Source of the DNA: a virus
Reading direction: 5' to 3' (one strand)
IMG/VR virus record: IMGVR_UViG_3300042691_009387
Location: 1-43,818 of that record
Length of the DNA: 43,818 nucleotides
Below the pieces are notes generated by a model. The model saw only the letters and a program-made list of their open reading frames with translations, did no database searches and was not told where the DNA came from. The translations under genes were made by a program, and so were the position numbers. Positions 26,573-31,684 of this stretch are shown piece by piece (the first letter of the stretch is position 1; each line of letters opens with the position of its first letter).

Positions 26573-27916
26573 TCAGACGCCAGCCATCGGGTCGTAGGCG
26601 GTGACGCTGACGTCGGAGTCGAACTGCCCCGCCCGGTGCCCGGCCAGGATGGCGGCCTGGCGGCGCAGGTCCCGCTCCTTGGCCACGGGGAACGCGAACG
26701 TGAGCGCGAGCGCATCGCCGAGGTCAGGCGACGGCAGGCCACGCTTCTTGATGTCGTCCTTGGCCTCGAGCGCCACCCGGTCCTGGTTGTCGAACGTGTA
26801 GATCGGCGCAGCCAGGTCCTGCATCAGCGCCGTGTTGCGTGGGATCGCGGCACCCAGGGCGAGCCACTCGCGCATCTCGAACCACATCTCGGCGCGCTTG
26901 TTGACGTAGCGGGGCTTGCTCGCCCGGCCACCGAAGTGCACCTCGGTGACCTCGTGGCCCATCTGGCGCAGCTTGTCGATGACGCCCGCCCCGTTGCCCG
27001 CGTCGATGAACACCGCATCGGCCTGGAAGTCGGCGATGGCCTGGCCCACGTAGGCCGCGAGCGCCATGTTGTCGATCTTGGTGTAGACCCGGAAGTCCTT
27101 GGCCAGCAGGCCCTGACGCACGCTGATCACGCTGCGGTCATCGCCGAACCGTGCCGGGTCCACGCCCAGGATCACGGGCGCGAAGTCGTACTGGTCGCGA
27201 CGCAGGTGGCGCCGTGTGGCCTCCTCCACATCGGCCAGGCTGATGAGCTGCTCGTCGCCCGCGGCGCTGAAGTCGCACAGGTACTCGCGCCGCCACGAGA
27301 GCTCGCTCATCTCGGCCTGCAGTCGGCGGGCCTCGTCCGGGTCGATCGACTCGGTGTCGTGCACCGTGTAGAGCGCCGAGTGCCAGTTCGTCTTGTCGCG
27401 TGCCTCAAAGAACAGCTTGGAGAACAGGTTCACACCCTTTGGCGTGCCGATGAACAGCGCCCAGCCCAGGCGGTCAGACAGCGCCGGCTGCAGGATGTCG
27501 TCCCACACCTCGGGCGCCATCTGCGCCACCTCGTCGAGCACGACACCGTCCAGGCGCACGCCCCGCATGCGGTCAGGGCTGTCGGCCCCGTACACACGGA
27601 TCACGGCGCCGTTGGTCGTGAACCGCACCCACAGCTCGGACTCGTTGATCTCGACCATCCCGCGCATGAGCAGCGGCGTGACCTTCTGCTTCAGGCGCAA
27701 CCAGGCGATGGCCTTGGCCTGCTTGAGCAGTGGGGCGACGTAGAAGAACAACCCGAGCTCGTGCTTGAACCGCAGCGCCTTGTCGATGAGCTCGGCCAGT
27801 GCGAGCTCGGTCTTGCCGGCCCGCCGGTGCAGCGCCAGCACCGTGAAGCGCCGGCGGTTGAGGTGGCACTCGGCCTGCCAGGCCCTGGGCCGGTAGCCGA
27901 GGTCGATCGCGGTCAG
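26573..27916 (-). CDS. terL: Terminase large subunit, probable CTG start
   Basis: ATP-driven DNA packaging motor and nuclease. Taking the CTG at 27916 as start gives 447 residues beginning LTAIDLGYRPRAWQAE. The Walker A-like HRRAGKTE falls at 30-37, Walker B VVLDEVAQM has D128/E129, and the RNase H-like nuclease begins VILGVDPARFGDDRSVI near 245. The first ATG/GTG in frame (GTG 27841) would start inside the Walker A strand and lose the conserved YRPRAWQAE segment. No ATG, GTG or TTG exists between there and the stop upstream of CTG. The CTG overlaps the small subunit's stop as CTGA, imitating an ATGA junction. The product is certain; the start is inferred. Confidence 0.9.
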   Translation of the reverse strand: MTAIDLGYRPRAWQAECHLNRRRFTVLALHRRAGKTELALAELIDKALRFKHELGLFFYVAPLLKQAKAIAWLRLKQKVTPLLMRGMVEINESELWVRFTTNGAVIRVYGADSPDRMRGVRLDGVVLDEVAQMAPEVWDDILQPALSDRLGWALFIGTPKGVNLFSKLFFEARDKTNWHSALYTVHDTESIDPDEARRLQAEMSELSWRREYLCDFSAAGDEQLISLADVEEATRRHLRRDQYDFAPVILGVDPARFGDDRSVISVRQGLLAKDFRVYTKIDNMALAAYVGQAIADFQADAVFIDAGNGAGVIDKLRQMGHEVTEVHFGGRASKPRYVNKRAEMWFEMREWLALGAAIPRNTALMQDLAAPIYTFDNQDRVALEAKDDIKKRGLPSPDLGDALALTFAFPVAKERDLRRQAAILAGHRAGQFDSDVSVTAYDPMAGV

Positions 27917-28341
27917 ACCAGATCCTCGATCGCCACAGGCGCATCGGGCACGCCGGTGACGATCACCACCTGGGACTGCACCGGGCCGCCGTTGGGCCCG
28001 GTCTGCTCCACCCGTTCAGCGAACACCTGCTTGCGCCTGCCCTTGAGCAGCAAGGCCAGCAGCGAGTCGCTGTAGACCGTCTTGGTGCCCACCAGTTGCC
28101 CGCCCTGGTACACGGGCTCCTCGACGCCCTCCAGGGCCCGCCTGCGGGCCTCCCGCTCGAGCTTGTCGGCGGCGGCCTCCATCGCGTCGCGCACGGCGGC
28201 GTCGAACTCCTCGTCGTCCTGCCGACGGCGAAACACGGTCGAGCGGTCCACGCCCGCAGCCGCGGCGGCGTCGGTCAGGACACCGCACTCAGCCAGGTGC
28301 GCGAGGAAGGCGTCGGTCCAGAGATGTCGAAGGTTGCCCAT
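27913..28341 (-). CDS. terS: Terminase small subunit
   Basis: 142 residues. The N-terminal HTH-like part WTDAFLAHLAECGVLTDAAA, then AGVDRSTVFRRRQDDEEFDAA, is the DNA-recognition region typical of phage small terminases. It is followed by a helix DAMEAAADKLEREARRRALE and the oligomerisation region SDSLLALLLKGRRKQVFAER, which ends the common core. It recognises pac/cos DNA and loads the large subunit. It lies directly before the large-subunit gene with a CTGA overlap. A GTGTCCGT motif lies 38 nt upstream of the ATG. Confidence 0.87.
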   Translation of the reverse strand: MGNLRHLWTDAFLAHLAECGVLTDAAAAAGVDRSTVFRRRQDDEEFDAAVRDAMEAAADKLEREARRRALEGVEEPVYQGGQLVGTKTVYSDSLLALLLKGRRKQVFAERVEQTGPNGGPVQSQVVIVTGVPDAPVAIEDLV

Positions 28342-28350
28342 GATCTGACC

Positions 28351-28620
28351 TTAGCCGCGAACCTTCGGATCACGGACACGCACCCAGCCGGCCGGCACCT
28401 GGCCACGCCGGTGGCCGCTCACGATCTTCCAGATGCAACCCTTCGACACTTCCATCTTGCGTGCGATCTCGGCCAGGGGCATGCCGTCGTCGCGAAGCTG
28501 GTGCACGAGCTCGACCTCGTGATCGGAGAGCACAGCCCCGGGGTGTTGCTCGCCGATGCGCCGACGCCGATCGTTGACCGGCACCAGGCGCATCTTTGCA
28601 GTTTTTTGCACACTGACCAT
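28351..28620 (-). CDS. Small HTH protein at head of packaging operon
   Basis: 89 residues from ATG 28620 (MVSVQKTAKMRLVPVNDRRR), which has SD AGAAAGG. A longer frame runs back into the repeat region without support. The HTH is HEVELVHQLRDDGMPLAEIA followed by KMEVSKGCIWKIVSGHRR, like small phage proteins of the 'AIA-KFEVSKS-V-DIV-RR' type that bind DNA. It is the first gene downstream of the candidate origin and precedes the terminase genes. It may regulate the late operon or take part in replication or packaging initiation. The C-terminal codons overlap a GTGTCCGT motif. Confidence 0.68.
   Translation of the reverse strand: MVSVQKTAKMRLVPVNDRRRRIGEQHPGAVLSDHEVELVHQLRDDGMPLAEIARKMEVSKGCIWKIVSGHRRGQVPAGWVRVRDPKVRG
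28370..28379 (-). promoter_or_regulatory. Recurrent GTGTCCGT boundary motif, copy 6 (in coding end)
   Basis: On the minus strand it reads GTGTCCGTGA and lies inside the C-terminal codons of the small HTH gene. It is again 38 nt before the next ATG (small terminase). The identical spacing suggests it belongs with the intergenic copies. Confidence 0.4.
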
Positions 28621-28684
28621 TCCAGGGCCTTTCTTGAAAAACTTTTCAAACAACCAAGAAAGGCTGCACACCGCGCCGCTGCGT

Positions 28685-28740
28685 ATAACTGCACCACGCA
28701 CCACCCCTTATAGGGTGGTGGTGCGGTGCGGTGCAGTTAT
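28685..28740. repeat. Long palindrome 1
   Basis: Outer arms ATAACTGCACC (28685-28695) and GGTGCAGTTAT (28730-28740) are perfectly complementary. Inner arms CACCACCC/GGGTGGTG surround an AT-rich centre (CTTATA), and a few bases are unpaired between the two stems. Confidence 0.85.
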
Positions 28741-28745
28741 CCACA
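28737..28745 (+). promoter_or_regulatory. DnaA box TTATCCACA
   Basis: A perfect match to the consensus host DnaA-binding 9-mer (TTATNCACA), overlapping the right foot of palindrome 1 and preceding palindrome 2. A single box in a 44-kb GC-rich window could be chance, but its location between the palindromes argues against that. Confidence 0.65.
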
Positions 28746-28748
28746 GGA

Positions 28749-28798
28749 TGCACCACGCACCACGATGTGCACGGTGCATCGTGGTGCACGGTGGTGCA
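28749..28798. repeat. Long palindrome 2
   Basis: Arms GCACCACGATG (28757-28767) and CATCGTGGTGC (28777-28787) pair perfectly around a 9-nt loop. Outside them TGCACCAC and GTGGTGCA extend the pairing with a small bulge. Confidence 0.82.
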
Positions 28799-28833
28799 GG
28801 TGCTTTCTTGCATGTTCGCGATTCCTTGCACGT

Positions 28834-30816
28834 TCACATGACTGCGATGCAGCCGTCGTCGCCGATCCAATACGGCGCCGTGTCACCGTTGCACAGGCTC
28901 TCCAACGCACGCTTCGCGTGCTGCCGCCTTGTGTCCCGCTTGCCATCCTCCGGTGCCGGCAAGCGCTTGACCGCCTCGGCCAGCACCGCAGCCACCTCAA
29001 TACCCTCGGTCTGCGCCTTGGCCATCTCCTGGATCACCTCGTTGACCACCACCTCCTTCGGCCCCAACTGACGCAGCAAGCGCACGCCCTGGAGCTCAGC
29101 CTCGACCACCACACACGACGTGATGGGCTCCATGTCCTCATCAGCGCCGATCTGCACCACGTCCAGCGCGAAGCCCCACTCGAGGCCGTCCTCGCCGTCC
29201 TTGTTCTTGCTCAGACGCAGCGCACGCTGGCCTGACTCGGTGCGGATCACCTCGACCTCAGCGTCGGCCGCCGCACGCAGGCCTGACCAACCCCGGGCGC
29301 CCCTGGCCTGGTCCTTCCCGCTGTGGTGGATGAGCACCACCAGCGCCCCTGTGAGCTCGTGCAGGCGCTTGCAATGGCCCAGGGCCTTGCCCATGTCCTC
29401 GCCCGCGTTCTCGTTGGCCCCTGGAGTGGTCTGCGCGAGCGTGTCGACCACGATCACGCTGGTGTCCTCCCCCGCCGCCAGCACGCCCACGGCCAAGTCC
29501 TTGGCATCCTCGAGCAGCATCAGGTTGGGGGCCCCGTTGAGCACGCTCACGGGCACGTCAGCGAGGTCGAGCTTGTTGTGCTGGGCGTAGGCGGCCAAGC
29601 GCTTCCTGAACCCGTCAGCGCCCTCGGCAGCAACGTATGCCACCCTCCCCTGCCTGACCTTGCGACCACGCCAGGGCGTGCCCCTGGCAATGGCCAACGC
29701 CAGGTCAAGCACGACGAACGACTTGCCGGCACCGCTGGCGCCGTAGATCACCGCCAGGCCCGCGGCCGGCAGCACGCCCTTCACGATCCAGGGCAGTGCA
29801 GTCGCGTTGGCGAACGTGTGGGCGGGCTCGAACTGAAACCGCAGCGGCTTGCCGTTGGCCTTGGCCGCCTCCACCGTCTCGGTGACCATGACCTCGAACT
29901 CCTCCGCGCTGGCCGGCGCACCACCAGCGATGGAGGCGCCGTGCTCGTTGGCCAGGTGCACGAAGCTCTTGCCGGTGACGACCGGCCCTTGCCCCTTGCC
30001 GAAGCTGTCCCAGCGCTGGCGCAGGATGTCGCGGCCGGGGAACTTCGCGCCTCGCTCGCTCCAGTCGCACCAGTAGTCGAACCCCTCGCCCCGTGTCTCG
30101 TGATGCAGCGCCATGCCGACCTGGAGCCACTCATCGTGGCCGGTGTCGGGGTCAAGGTGCTCCAGGCCCTGCTCGATCTGGCTGGGTGTGAGACCCAGCA
30201 CCGGGTCGTCGTGGCTGGGGGTCGGTCCGTCCTGGCGCTGGAACCGCTGGCGCACCAGGCCCATCACCTCCTCCCCGATCGGGGAGACGGTGTTCTCGTT
30301 GCCGAGCACGTCGCAGATCTCCAGGCGGTTGCCGGTGACGGTCACGAATCCCTTGGTGCTGAAGGTCTCGAACCCGTAGGCGCCCTCGAACGACTTGCGG
30401 TTGAACAGCAGGCCACGCAGCAGCACCCGCACGCCGGTGCCCGATGGGCTCCACTCCGCGTAGCTGGTCGATGCGATCGCCTCCACCTCGGGGTGGAGCT
30501 GGCCGCCGCTGACGCATCGGTCGAAGTCGAGCGCGGTCAGGTTCCAGTCAGGCAGCAGTGCAATGCCCACGCCGTCGAACCCGCGGCGGGCGGCTGCACT
30601 GCGTGCGGCGTCGAACGTGGTGAGCTGCTGCCTGTCCTCGGGGGAGCCCTGCTGCCCCTGGCGGCGTCGCCCGTTGGGGTAGTACGGGACCTTGCGGGGC
30701 TTGTCCTCGCCCTCGTGGTACTCGAGCCGCCACATCAGCCAGCCCGGGATCTCTCGGAGCTCGTCTGGGACTGTGACGGTGTTGAGGTGTGCGCTGAGTT
30801 TGGTCACGGCGCTCAT
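28834..30816 (-). CDS. Primase-helicase (PrimPol-like, PriCT_2 and RecA-like ATPase)
   Basis: 660 residues. The N-terminal 130 contain YYPNGRRRQG, then VGIALLPDWNLTALDFDRC and EWSPSGTGVRVLLRG, the pattern of the primase-polymerase N-domain of phage/plasmid replication proteins. Next is a PriCT_2-like segment (GHDEWLQVGMALHHETRGEG). The C-terminal RecA-type ATPase has Walker A GASGAGKS at 359-366 (K365) and Walker B VIVVD with D458. It should unwind and prime phage DNA at the adjacent palindromic region. It is transcribed with the Cro-like gene upstream. The length and order resemble RepA/AAA_25-type phage helicases. Primase activity is inferred, not shown. Confidence 0.82.
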   Translation of the reverse strand: MSAVTKLSAHLNTVTVPDELREIPGWLMWRLEYHEGEDKPRKVPYYPNGRRRQGQQGSPEDRQQLTTFDAARSAAARRGFDGVGIALLPDWNLTALDFDRCVSGGQLHPEVEAIASTSYAEWSPSGTGVRVLLRGLLFNRKSFEGAYGFETFSTKGFVTVTGNRLEICDVLGNENTVSPIGEEVMGLVRQRFQRQDGPTPSHDDPVLGLTPSQIEQGLEHLDPDTGHDEWLQVGMALHHETRGEGFDYWCDWSERGAKFPGRDILRQRWDSFGKGQGPVVTGKSFVHLANEHGASIAGGAPASAEEFEVMVTETVEAAKANGKPLRFQFEPAHTFANATALPWIVKGVLPAAGLAVIYGASGAGKSFVVLDLALAIARGTPWRGRKVRQGRVAYVAAEGADGFRKRLAAYAQHNKLDLADVPVSVLNGAPNLMLLEDAKDLAVGVLAAGEDTSVIVVDTLAQTTPGANENAGEDMGKALGHCKRLHELTGALVVLIHHSGKDQARGARGWSGLRAAADAEVEVIRTESGQRALRLSKNKDGEDGLEWGFALDVVQIGADEDMEPITSCVVVEAELQGVRLLRQLGPKEVVVNEVIQEMAKAQTEGIEVAAVLAEAVKRLPAPEDGKRDTRRQHAKRALESLCNGDTAPYWIGDDGCIAVM

Positions 30817-30819
30817 CGC

Positions 30820-31173
30820 TCAGTCGGCGGTGCCGCCCTCAGACTCCACGAACAGCTCGCCCTGGCGCGGGTCGACGATCGGGAAGTGGCTCGCCACCGC
30901 CCGCTCGCCAAGACACTTCTGGGCGTACTCGCACTGGCGGCAGGCGTCGACGACGTCGGTGCGGTAGACGACCGGCAACCGCCCCTTGCTGGCCTTGGCC
31001 ATTGCCTTGGTGACCCGCTCGAGGTCTCCACCACGCTGGGCGCTCGCCTCGCGGAAGCCCCCCGCGTACTGGTAGAGCATCGCCCGGCTGGTGCCCGCCA
31101 TCTCGGCGAGCGCCTCCTGCTCCTGTGGGGTGGCGGCCATCATCCAGGCCTTCATGGGTGTGATCGTGGTCAT
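30820..31173 (-). CDS. Cro-like HTH regulator with a cysteine cluster
   Basis: 117 residues from ATG 31173 (MTTITPMKAWMMAATPQEQE); an upstream in-frame extension reaches into the regulatory interval and is not supported. The HTH reads LAEMAGTSRAMLYQYAGGFR, like YdaS/Cro-type phage repressors. The C-terminal part has DACRQCEYAQKCLG, a C-x2-C-x6-C set that could bind zinc or an Fe-S cluster; this is unusual for a small Cro. The gene is first in the minus early transcript and is divergent from a CI-like gene. An operator (31203-31218) overlaps its putative -10. It probably controls both early directions. Confidence 0.72.
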   Translation of the reverse strand: MTTITPMKAWMMAATPQEQEALAEMAGTSRAMLYQYAGGFREASAQRGGDLERVTKAMAKASKGRLPVVYRTDVVDACRQCEYAQKCLGERAVASHFPIVDPRQGELFVESEGGTAD

Positions 31174-31202
31174 GGTGGTGAAAAGGTTGAAGGGGGCCCG
31201 AC

Positions 31203-31218
31203 TGTAGCATTTAGTAAA
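31203..31218 (-). promoter_or_regulatory. Operator copy 1 with cro promoter -10
   Basis: On the minus strand it reads TTTACTAAATGCTACA; the right half matches the consensus GCTACA while the left half has two mismatches. The following TACAGT can serve as a -10 for the cro transcript, with GTGCAA 16 bp upstream as a weak -35. It lies in the cI/cro divergent interval. Confidence 0.55.
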
Positions 31219-31258
31219 GCCGTTGCACACCCTGCTATGACTGTGCGAGGCTATCCGG

Positions 31259-31684
31259 GTGAGGACCATCTACGACACCCGCCGCGACAACCTGCGAGCG
31301 CTCATCGGCCAGTGGGGTGGGCCGACCTCGCTGGCGAAGAAGCTGGGGCACTCGAACGGGAGCTACATCGCCCAGCTCGCCGGGCCCAGGCCGTCGCGCG
31401 AGGTCAGCGAGAAGGTGGCCCGCGAGATCGAGAAGGTGCTGGGCCTGCCGGTGGCCTGGATGGACCAGGACCACCCGACCGGCGGCCAGCAGTTGAACGA
31501 CGAGACGCTGACCGAGTGTGTCAAGGCGGTGGCCACCGTGCTTCGTGACGCAGGTCTCAGACCGGACCCGCAGGCGTATGCGACGCTGGTCCAGCTTGTC
31601 TATGACCGCGTCAAGCTGACCGGCCGCCTGGACGAGCACCACATTCAGAAACTGACAACCCTACTCCGTGGGAGCGGACGATGA
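31259..31684 (+). CDS. CI-like repressor (XRE HTH, no peptidase domain)
   Basis: 141 residues with GTG start at 31259. The HTH region reads LRALIGQWGGPTSLAKKLGH, then SNGSYIAQLAGPRPSREVSE and KVAREIEKVLGLPVAWMD. This is the usual phage XRE pattern ending in 'LGLP-WLD'. The C-terminal 65 residues are helical and lack the S24/LexA-type Ser-Lys peptidase, so RecA-driven self-cleavage is not expected. It faces a Cro-like gene across an 85-bp interval, like lambda cI/cro. It could be the ligand of the dispersed operators. A small membrane protein gene follows with ATGA overlap. Confidence 0.72.
   Translation: MRTIYDTRRDNLRALIGQWGGPTSLAKKLGHSNGSYIAQLAGPRPSREVSEKVAREIEKVLGLPVAWMDQDHPTGGQQLNDETLTECVKAVATVLRDAGLRPDPQAYATLVQLVYDRVKLTGRLDEHHIQKLTTLLRGSGR

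Follow-up and report, generated by a model that had tools for sequence, protein, structure and literature searches.

Does the repeat-rich segment that follows a phage primase-helicase gene mark the site where replication begins and, if so, which protein reads it? We addressed this question in an IMG/VR virus record of 43,818 bases (the window, i.e. the whole stretch of DNA analysed), in which an earlier note had proposed a DnaA-dependent origin at 28621-28833. The minus-strand genes between 183 and 31269 encode virion proteins, the portal, TerL, TerS, a small HTH protein and the primase-helicase. From 31259 to ∼40 kb the genes are mostly on the plus strand and encode a DUF2800 exonuclease, an Enc34-type SSB, a family-A DNA polymerase and an SNF2-type helicase. 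The primase-helicase (28834-30816, minus strand, 660 aa) combines an NrS-1-type primase/polymerase, PriCT-2, a RepA-type AAA_25 helicase and a C-terminal winged helix. PriCT-2 and AAA_25 were assigned by Pfam (AAA_25 E value of 1.6e-39); in PDB sequence searches, the N-terminus matched the solved phage primases 7ola and 6a9w and the helicase domain matched RSF1010 RepA (1g8y; E value of 2.8e-7). The closest primase-helicase from cultured phages is 43% identical and belongs to Caulobacter phages such as RW. The HTH protein (28351-28620, minus strand, 89 aa) is a homologue of Bordetella phage BPP-1 bbp27. Small divergent HTH-like genes at 30820-31269 (minus) and 31259-31684 (plus), whose annotated starts overlap, resemble a lysogeny switch.

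Both palindromes that the earlier note had described were recovered when 28621-28833 was read directly and searched for repeats. The search returned one inverted repeat of 27 nt (28679-28705/28720-28746; 78%) and another of 17 nt (28751-28767/28777-28793; 88%), together with direct repeats of GCACCAC. GCACC/GGTGC occurs 11 times in these 213 nt, compared with a mean of 1.45 and a maximum of 7 in 2000 dinucleotide shuffles and with ∼1.4 copies per 213 nt in the rest of the contig, and GCACCAC is present seven times, against a shuffle maximum of two. This word cluster is far above chance. The claimed density of GGTGCA/TGCACC holds as clustering within the element, but GGTGCA is not rare across the contig (49 copies, 42 expected). 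On the gene strand, four forward and two reversed words are followed by three forward words, an apex and two reversed words. The first six make up array 1 (28750-28803, minus strand), which forms one palindrome, with gene-strand GCACC at 28773-28777, 28783-28787, 28793-28797 and 28799-28803 and inverted copies at 28750-28754 and 28757-28761. In array 2, the near arm (28720-28734, minus strand) holds three gene-strand copies (28720-28724, 28725-28729 and 28730-28734) and the far arm (28691-28702, plus strand) holds two that are inverted relative to the gene strand (28691-28695 and 28698-28702). The central palindrome, or hairpin apex (28701-28721, by direct reading), is CCACCCTATAAGGGGTGG on the gene strand, with the family core CCCTWTAGGG. 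Folded as single-stranded DNA, 28664-28805 gave a z-score of -6.3. AT content was flat around the element and apex, and across the family the AT profile revealed no AT-rich unwinding element; the one AT-rich candidate for unwinding in the window is 28626-28660.

The core of the element lies within 28621-28833, as first drawn, but its true span is 28593-28834, bracketed by a second palindromic motif. This 22-bp palindrome (family motif AACGTGCAAAATTTTGCACGTT) does not depend on the word, and the two highest-scoring sites in the window lie at either end of the element: an HTH-side copy at 28593-28614 (minus strand; AGTGTGCAAAAAACTGCAAAGA; PWM score of 19.4 bits) and a primase-helicase-side copy at 28813-28834 (minus strand; AACGTGCAAGGAATCGCGAACA; 14.6 bits), which shares a single base with the 3′ end of the primase-helicase gene. 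A weak third copy (28631-28652, minus strand; TTGAAAAGTTTTTCAA; 8.7 bits) falls within the AT-rich stretch.

Relatives were collected from IMG/VR and from one genome per species (GTDB), giving 284 loci with the primase-helicase, 150 of them distinct and with downstream DNA. About 100 distinct relatives have the same layout after the primase-helicase gene: a word array in direct and inverted orientation, a spacer and a large word hairpin. Most close and middle-distance relatives share the order primase-helicase stop, ∼200-nt element, HTH gene and TerS; small genes separate the stop from the element in L020, L029 and L047. In L040, L041, L043, L049 and L060, an opposite-strand ORF that may encode an HNH-type homing endonuclease (judged by eye alone) separates the element from the HTH gene, which is displaced by ∼450 nt. 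While the layout stays constant, the word changes, and every copy within an element changes with it, so that one element has one word. Approximately two dozen words were distinguished (24 labels over 100 loci, assigned by reading and including L039, a coding repeat), among them TGCACC, TGCAAC, CCCTGAA, CCTTCA, CCCTACT, CCGACT, CCCTTGA, GCCACA, CGAACA, GAAACA, ACGACA, GCACTT, TTCACC, GCCCCA, CGTCCC, GGTTGA and CTACAT. The automatic word finder mislabels some coding repeats (L038, L039, L113 and weak rows with n of 3-5); these were excluded from the main counts, with L039 retained in the label list. Of 101 elements, 45 contain a palindromic CCCTWTAGGG-type core, compared with 0/101 control segments. 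A distant group of another phage type (L050-L057 and L061) is the only one that has the primase-helicase but not the region, with no iteron array after the gene. Several of these and others (L050, L053, L057 and L061 among them) have just a small hairpin, such as GCTTGCAATNNNNNNATTGCAGG, after the primase-helicase stop, and their origin may be elsewhere or simplified. More distant AAA_25 helicase genes in bacteria, including Legionella drozanskii, Ramlibacter and Acidiphilium (L107, L116, L120, L123, L124 and L127), are also followed by arrays of a single short word; the arrangement may extend well past this phage group.

By sequence comparison, it is the primase-helicase, rather than the HTH protein or TerS, that evolves with the element. 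In an alignment of the whole primase-helicase, residue 633 was the sole column that fully separated 13 GCACC loci (His) from 22 GCAAC loci (Arg/Lys). In a larger set, His accompanied GCACC at 19 loci and a non-His residue (Arg/Lys and others) accompanied GCAAC at 53, His was never paired with GCAAC, and the one exception was L097 (Magnetospirillum), with Arg and GCACC. His at this position also accompanies TGCACTT and TTCACC. In a helicase-domain tree that omits the C-terminal domain, the word switches 11 times, seven of which are forced by supported branches. Across seven independent pairs on supported branches, residue 633 switched with the word in six, was unchanged in one and switched in the opposite direction in none (sign test; P = 0.031, at the edge of its power). 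Larger exchanges were also evident. The helicase domains of L141 and L156 are 100% identical, yet their recognition helices share 21% identity and their words (TGCAAC and CCCTTGA) are unrelated; likewise, L186 and L199 have helicase domains that are 99% identical, recognition helices that are 38% identical and unrelated words. At matched helicase identity (0.9 bin), recognition-helix identity was 0.89 for same-word pairs and 0.55 otherwise. Words beginning with CCC or ACCC accompany an inserted helix of the KGN/KGD type (L031, L044, L092, L148, L150, L156 and L165).

AlphaFold2 predicted that the last 75 residues of the primase-helicase form a winged helix (block pLDDT of 92-98 over the domain). 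Residue 633 (His in the window; codon 28918-28920) is position 77 of the 104-aa fragment that was modelled and falls within the third helix (74-86), the predicted recognition helix (residues 630-642; 28891-28929, minus strand). Searching PDB sequences with the C-terminal domain gave nothing significant, and fold searches returned generic winged helices only (Orc3, Cdc6 and Fur types; best Z of 8.5). Foldseek gave no match with an E value below 0.001; P4 alpha was absent, which decides nothing. The HTH protein was also considered as the word reader and was rejected, since its recognition helix is unchanged across different words (L007 versus the window; L031 versus L016). Because the C-terminal winged helix of the primase-helicase tracks the iteron word, the domain is predicted to recognise it, and the primase-helicase is the likely initiator. 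The co-variation is that of a domain and a word evolving together, a pattern that autoregulation by the primase-helicase would also give.

Its position, its conserved architecture and the co-variation of word and primase-helicase strongly support the proposal that the element is a replication origin. We consider it very probable that 28593-28834 is the origin of this phage and that its initiator is encoded next door. GC skew was uninformative, with a turning point near 26.8 kb and a third-position skew that follows gene orientation. Based on the co-variation, initiation would begin with the winged helix binding the GCACC iterons of both arrays. The architecture suggests that array geometry would then set two opposed RepA-type helicase rings, and that the palindromes may extrude, baring the apex and the outer arms. 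Given the gene content, the N-terminal primase domain would prime on the unpaired strand, and bidirectional forks would be extended by the phage family-A DNA polymerase, SSB and helicases from the 31-40 kb region. Finally, co-occurrence points to the HTH protein, which on the flanking palindromes may couple or repress initiation and/or transcription of the HTH-terminase operon.

An alternative is that the repeats are an operator array through which the HTH protein, or the primase-helicase as an autorepressor, controls transcription, with the origin elsewhere. The element does lie upstream of the HTH-terminase operon, and the flanking palindrome tends to accompany the HTH gene, with two or more sites at 75/90 loci that have the gene and at 9/49 that lack it. 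The palindrome is present in 98/117 elements, with at least two copies in 88/117, and is 24-fold denser in elements than in the rest of the loci, a value that arises partly by construction as the motif was learned there. BPP-1 has an HTH homologue, the same flanking motif and a word-type inverted repeat beside that gene, despite a different helicase. We therefore propose the small HTH protein as a putative binder of the flanking palindromes, whose association with it could also be accounted for by shared ancestry. For the iterons, evidence against such an array is that HTH recognition helices are constant across words and that word arrays exist without the HTH gene; in addition, no sigma-70-like promoter was found within 28400-29100. 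Regulation by an operator probably explains the flanking palindromes, but as an account of the whole element it is unlikely.

We regard as quite improbable the reading closest to the original proposal, in which host DnaA opens the DNA after binding to TTATCCACA and the palindromes are accessory. The perfect DnaA box described by the earlier note is present (28737-28745, plus strand) and is the only site in the window with zero or one mismatch. It lies within the outer stem arm of the array 2 hairpin. However, this is a single box, whereas several are the hallmark of a DnaA-dependent origin, and exact copies occur in only 5/101 elements, all in the nearest clade (the window, L006, L008, L012 and L059). 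Beyond that clade, the distribution of best mismatches resembles that of shuffled sequence, and L005 and L007, inside or next to it, have no box. In many relatives, its site, the outer hairpin arm, holds other complementary sequences, e.g. GCTTCA/TGAAGC, and outer arms with at least five complementary positions were found in 70% of own-locus comparisons but in 33% when arms were swapped between loci. The earlier note had invoked host DnaA for want of a phage initiator; this argument finds no support here, as the winged helix of the primase-helicase tracks the word and so few elements carry the box. Host DnaA is not a general requirement. Since the box is exact in all five loci that carry it while its partner arm varies, DnaA may act locally as a helper in the clade to which the window belongs.

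Sites for DNA packaging (cos/pac) are often near terS, and the TerS gene (27913-28341) is two genes from the element. TerS might thus bind the repeats for packaging, a reading that we consider very improbable, as the word follows the primase-helicase and arrays also occur in other gene neighbourhoods (Legionella L107 and L116; Ramlibacter L123). A cos/pac site is rejected by the co-variation alone, because TerS does not track the word: it is 98% identical in L021 and L031, which have different words, and its identity is 0.82-0.89 across GCACC/GCAAC pairs. Although the hairpins are very stable, an RNA element (a structured leader, attenuator or terminator) on the primase-helicase mRNA is highly unlikely, since the element has no Rfam match, the gene strand has no terminator-like site, and G-T and A-C mismatches on that strand (40 versus 55; isolated, 2 versus 2; few events and low power) showed no G-T excess, the pattern that repeats acting as double-stranded DNA, and not as a one-strand RNA, should give.

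For the element as an origin read by the primase-helicase, we tentatively suggest that phages with one replication machine carry exchangeable cassettes of a winged-helix reader and its origin word, the architecture remaining constant. It is conceivable, with similar reservation, that these cassettes are either swapped as a unit (L141/L156 and L186/L199) or tuned by one residue facing one base (His633 with GCACC, Arg/Lys with GCAAC). If so, word turnover would enable related phages that co-infect one cell to avoid cross-initiation, or would help escape from satellites or defences that target the origin. If the element is the origin, one would be identified for a widespread group of mostly uncultured podovirus-like phages, and a rule for finding others would follow: past the primase-helicase, seek a hairpin surrounded by copies of one word in both orientations. 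With approximately two dozen paired origin words and reader helices, initiator-origin specificity, usually studied plasmid by plasmid, would become a swappable set.

We found no published description of this origin family in a search of mainly non-subscription literature, and compared it with known systems. SaPI origins have an AT-rich core between iteron sets, whereas none was seen here around the apex. The initiators of SaPI and SCCmec use a C-terminal domain to bind short iterons that lie immediately 3′ of the initiator gene (PMC7581432). As in SaPI rep-ori and SCCmec Cch2 (AAGTG iterons), the putative iteron origin here directly follows the gene of the likely initiator, and several short iterons, direct and inverted, are present as in modules of the SaPI/P4 kind. 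In contrast, the SaPI/SCCmec helicases belong to the DUF927 or D5/Primase_Cterm types, while here AAA_25 (RSF1010 RepA-like) is fused to an NrS-1-type primase, and the element also has flanking palindromes and a large word hairpin whose apex is conserved.

The archaeal plasmid pRN1 needs a stem-loop located 3′ of its primase-helicase gene, and Berkner and Lipps proposed a counterpart stem-loop origin in Bordetella phage BIP-1/BPP-1 (PMC4234260). The likeness extends to a primase/polymerase-helicase with a C-terminal winged helix and a ∼100-nt stem-loop 3′ of the gene, and BPP-1 is syntenic with the window (replication gene, HTH bbp27, TerS and TerL on one strand). These systems have an SF3 helicase with no iterons noted (PMC4234260), in contrast to AAA_25 and iterons here. 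In BPP-1 (L289; NC_005357), we observed GCCTCG inverted repeats (TTTGCCTCGTTTGCCTCG...CGAGGCAAACGAGGCAA) and flanking motifs between bbp28 and bbp27; the repeats adjoin bbp27, beyond bbp28, and the published stem-loop was placed at the stop of the replication gene, bbp29 (PMC4234260). The alpha protein of phage P4, which binds the origin (ori/crr) repeats, is a single chain of primase, helicase and C-terminal winged helix (PMC4234260). The domain combination is the same, but the P4 primase is of the Toprim type. RSF1010 (IncQ) oriV has iterons and hairpins used for priming (PMC4234260) and shares the RepA-type hexameric helicase. Its iterons are bound by a separate protein, RepC, whereas the proposed reader here is fused to the helicase; the small HTH protein, as a RepC-like separate binder, does not track the word. 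As judged from its sequences, the family combines iterons and a stem-loop on a RepA-type helicase. The element would work like the SaPI, P4 and pRN1 modules, but it is set apart from SaPI/SCCmec and pRN1 because defining features of each fail (helicase type, AT-rich core and absence of iterons). If this is correct, the Bordetella phage stem-loop and the iteron origins of satellites would be explained in one scheme.
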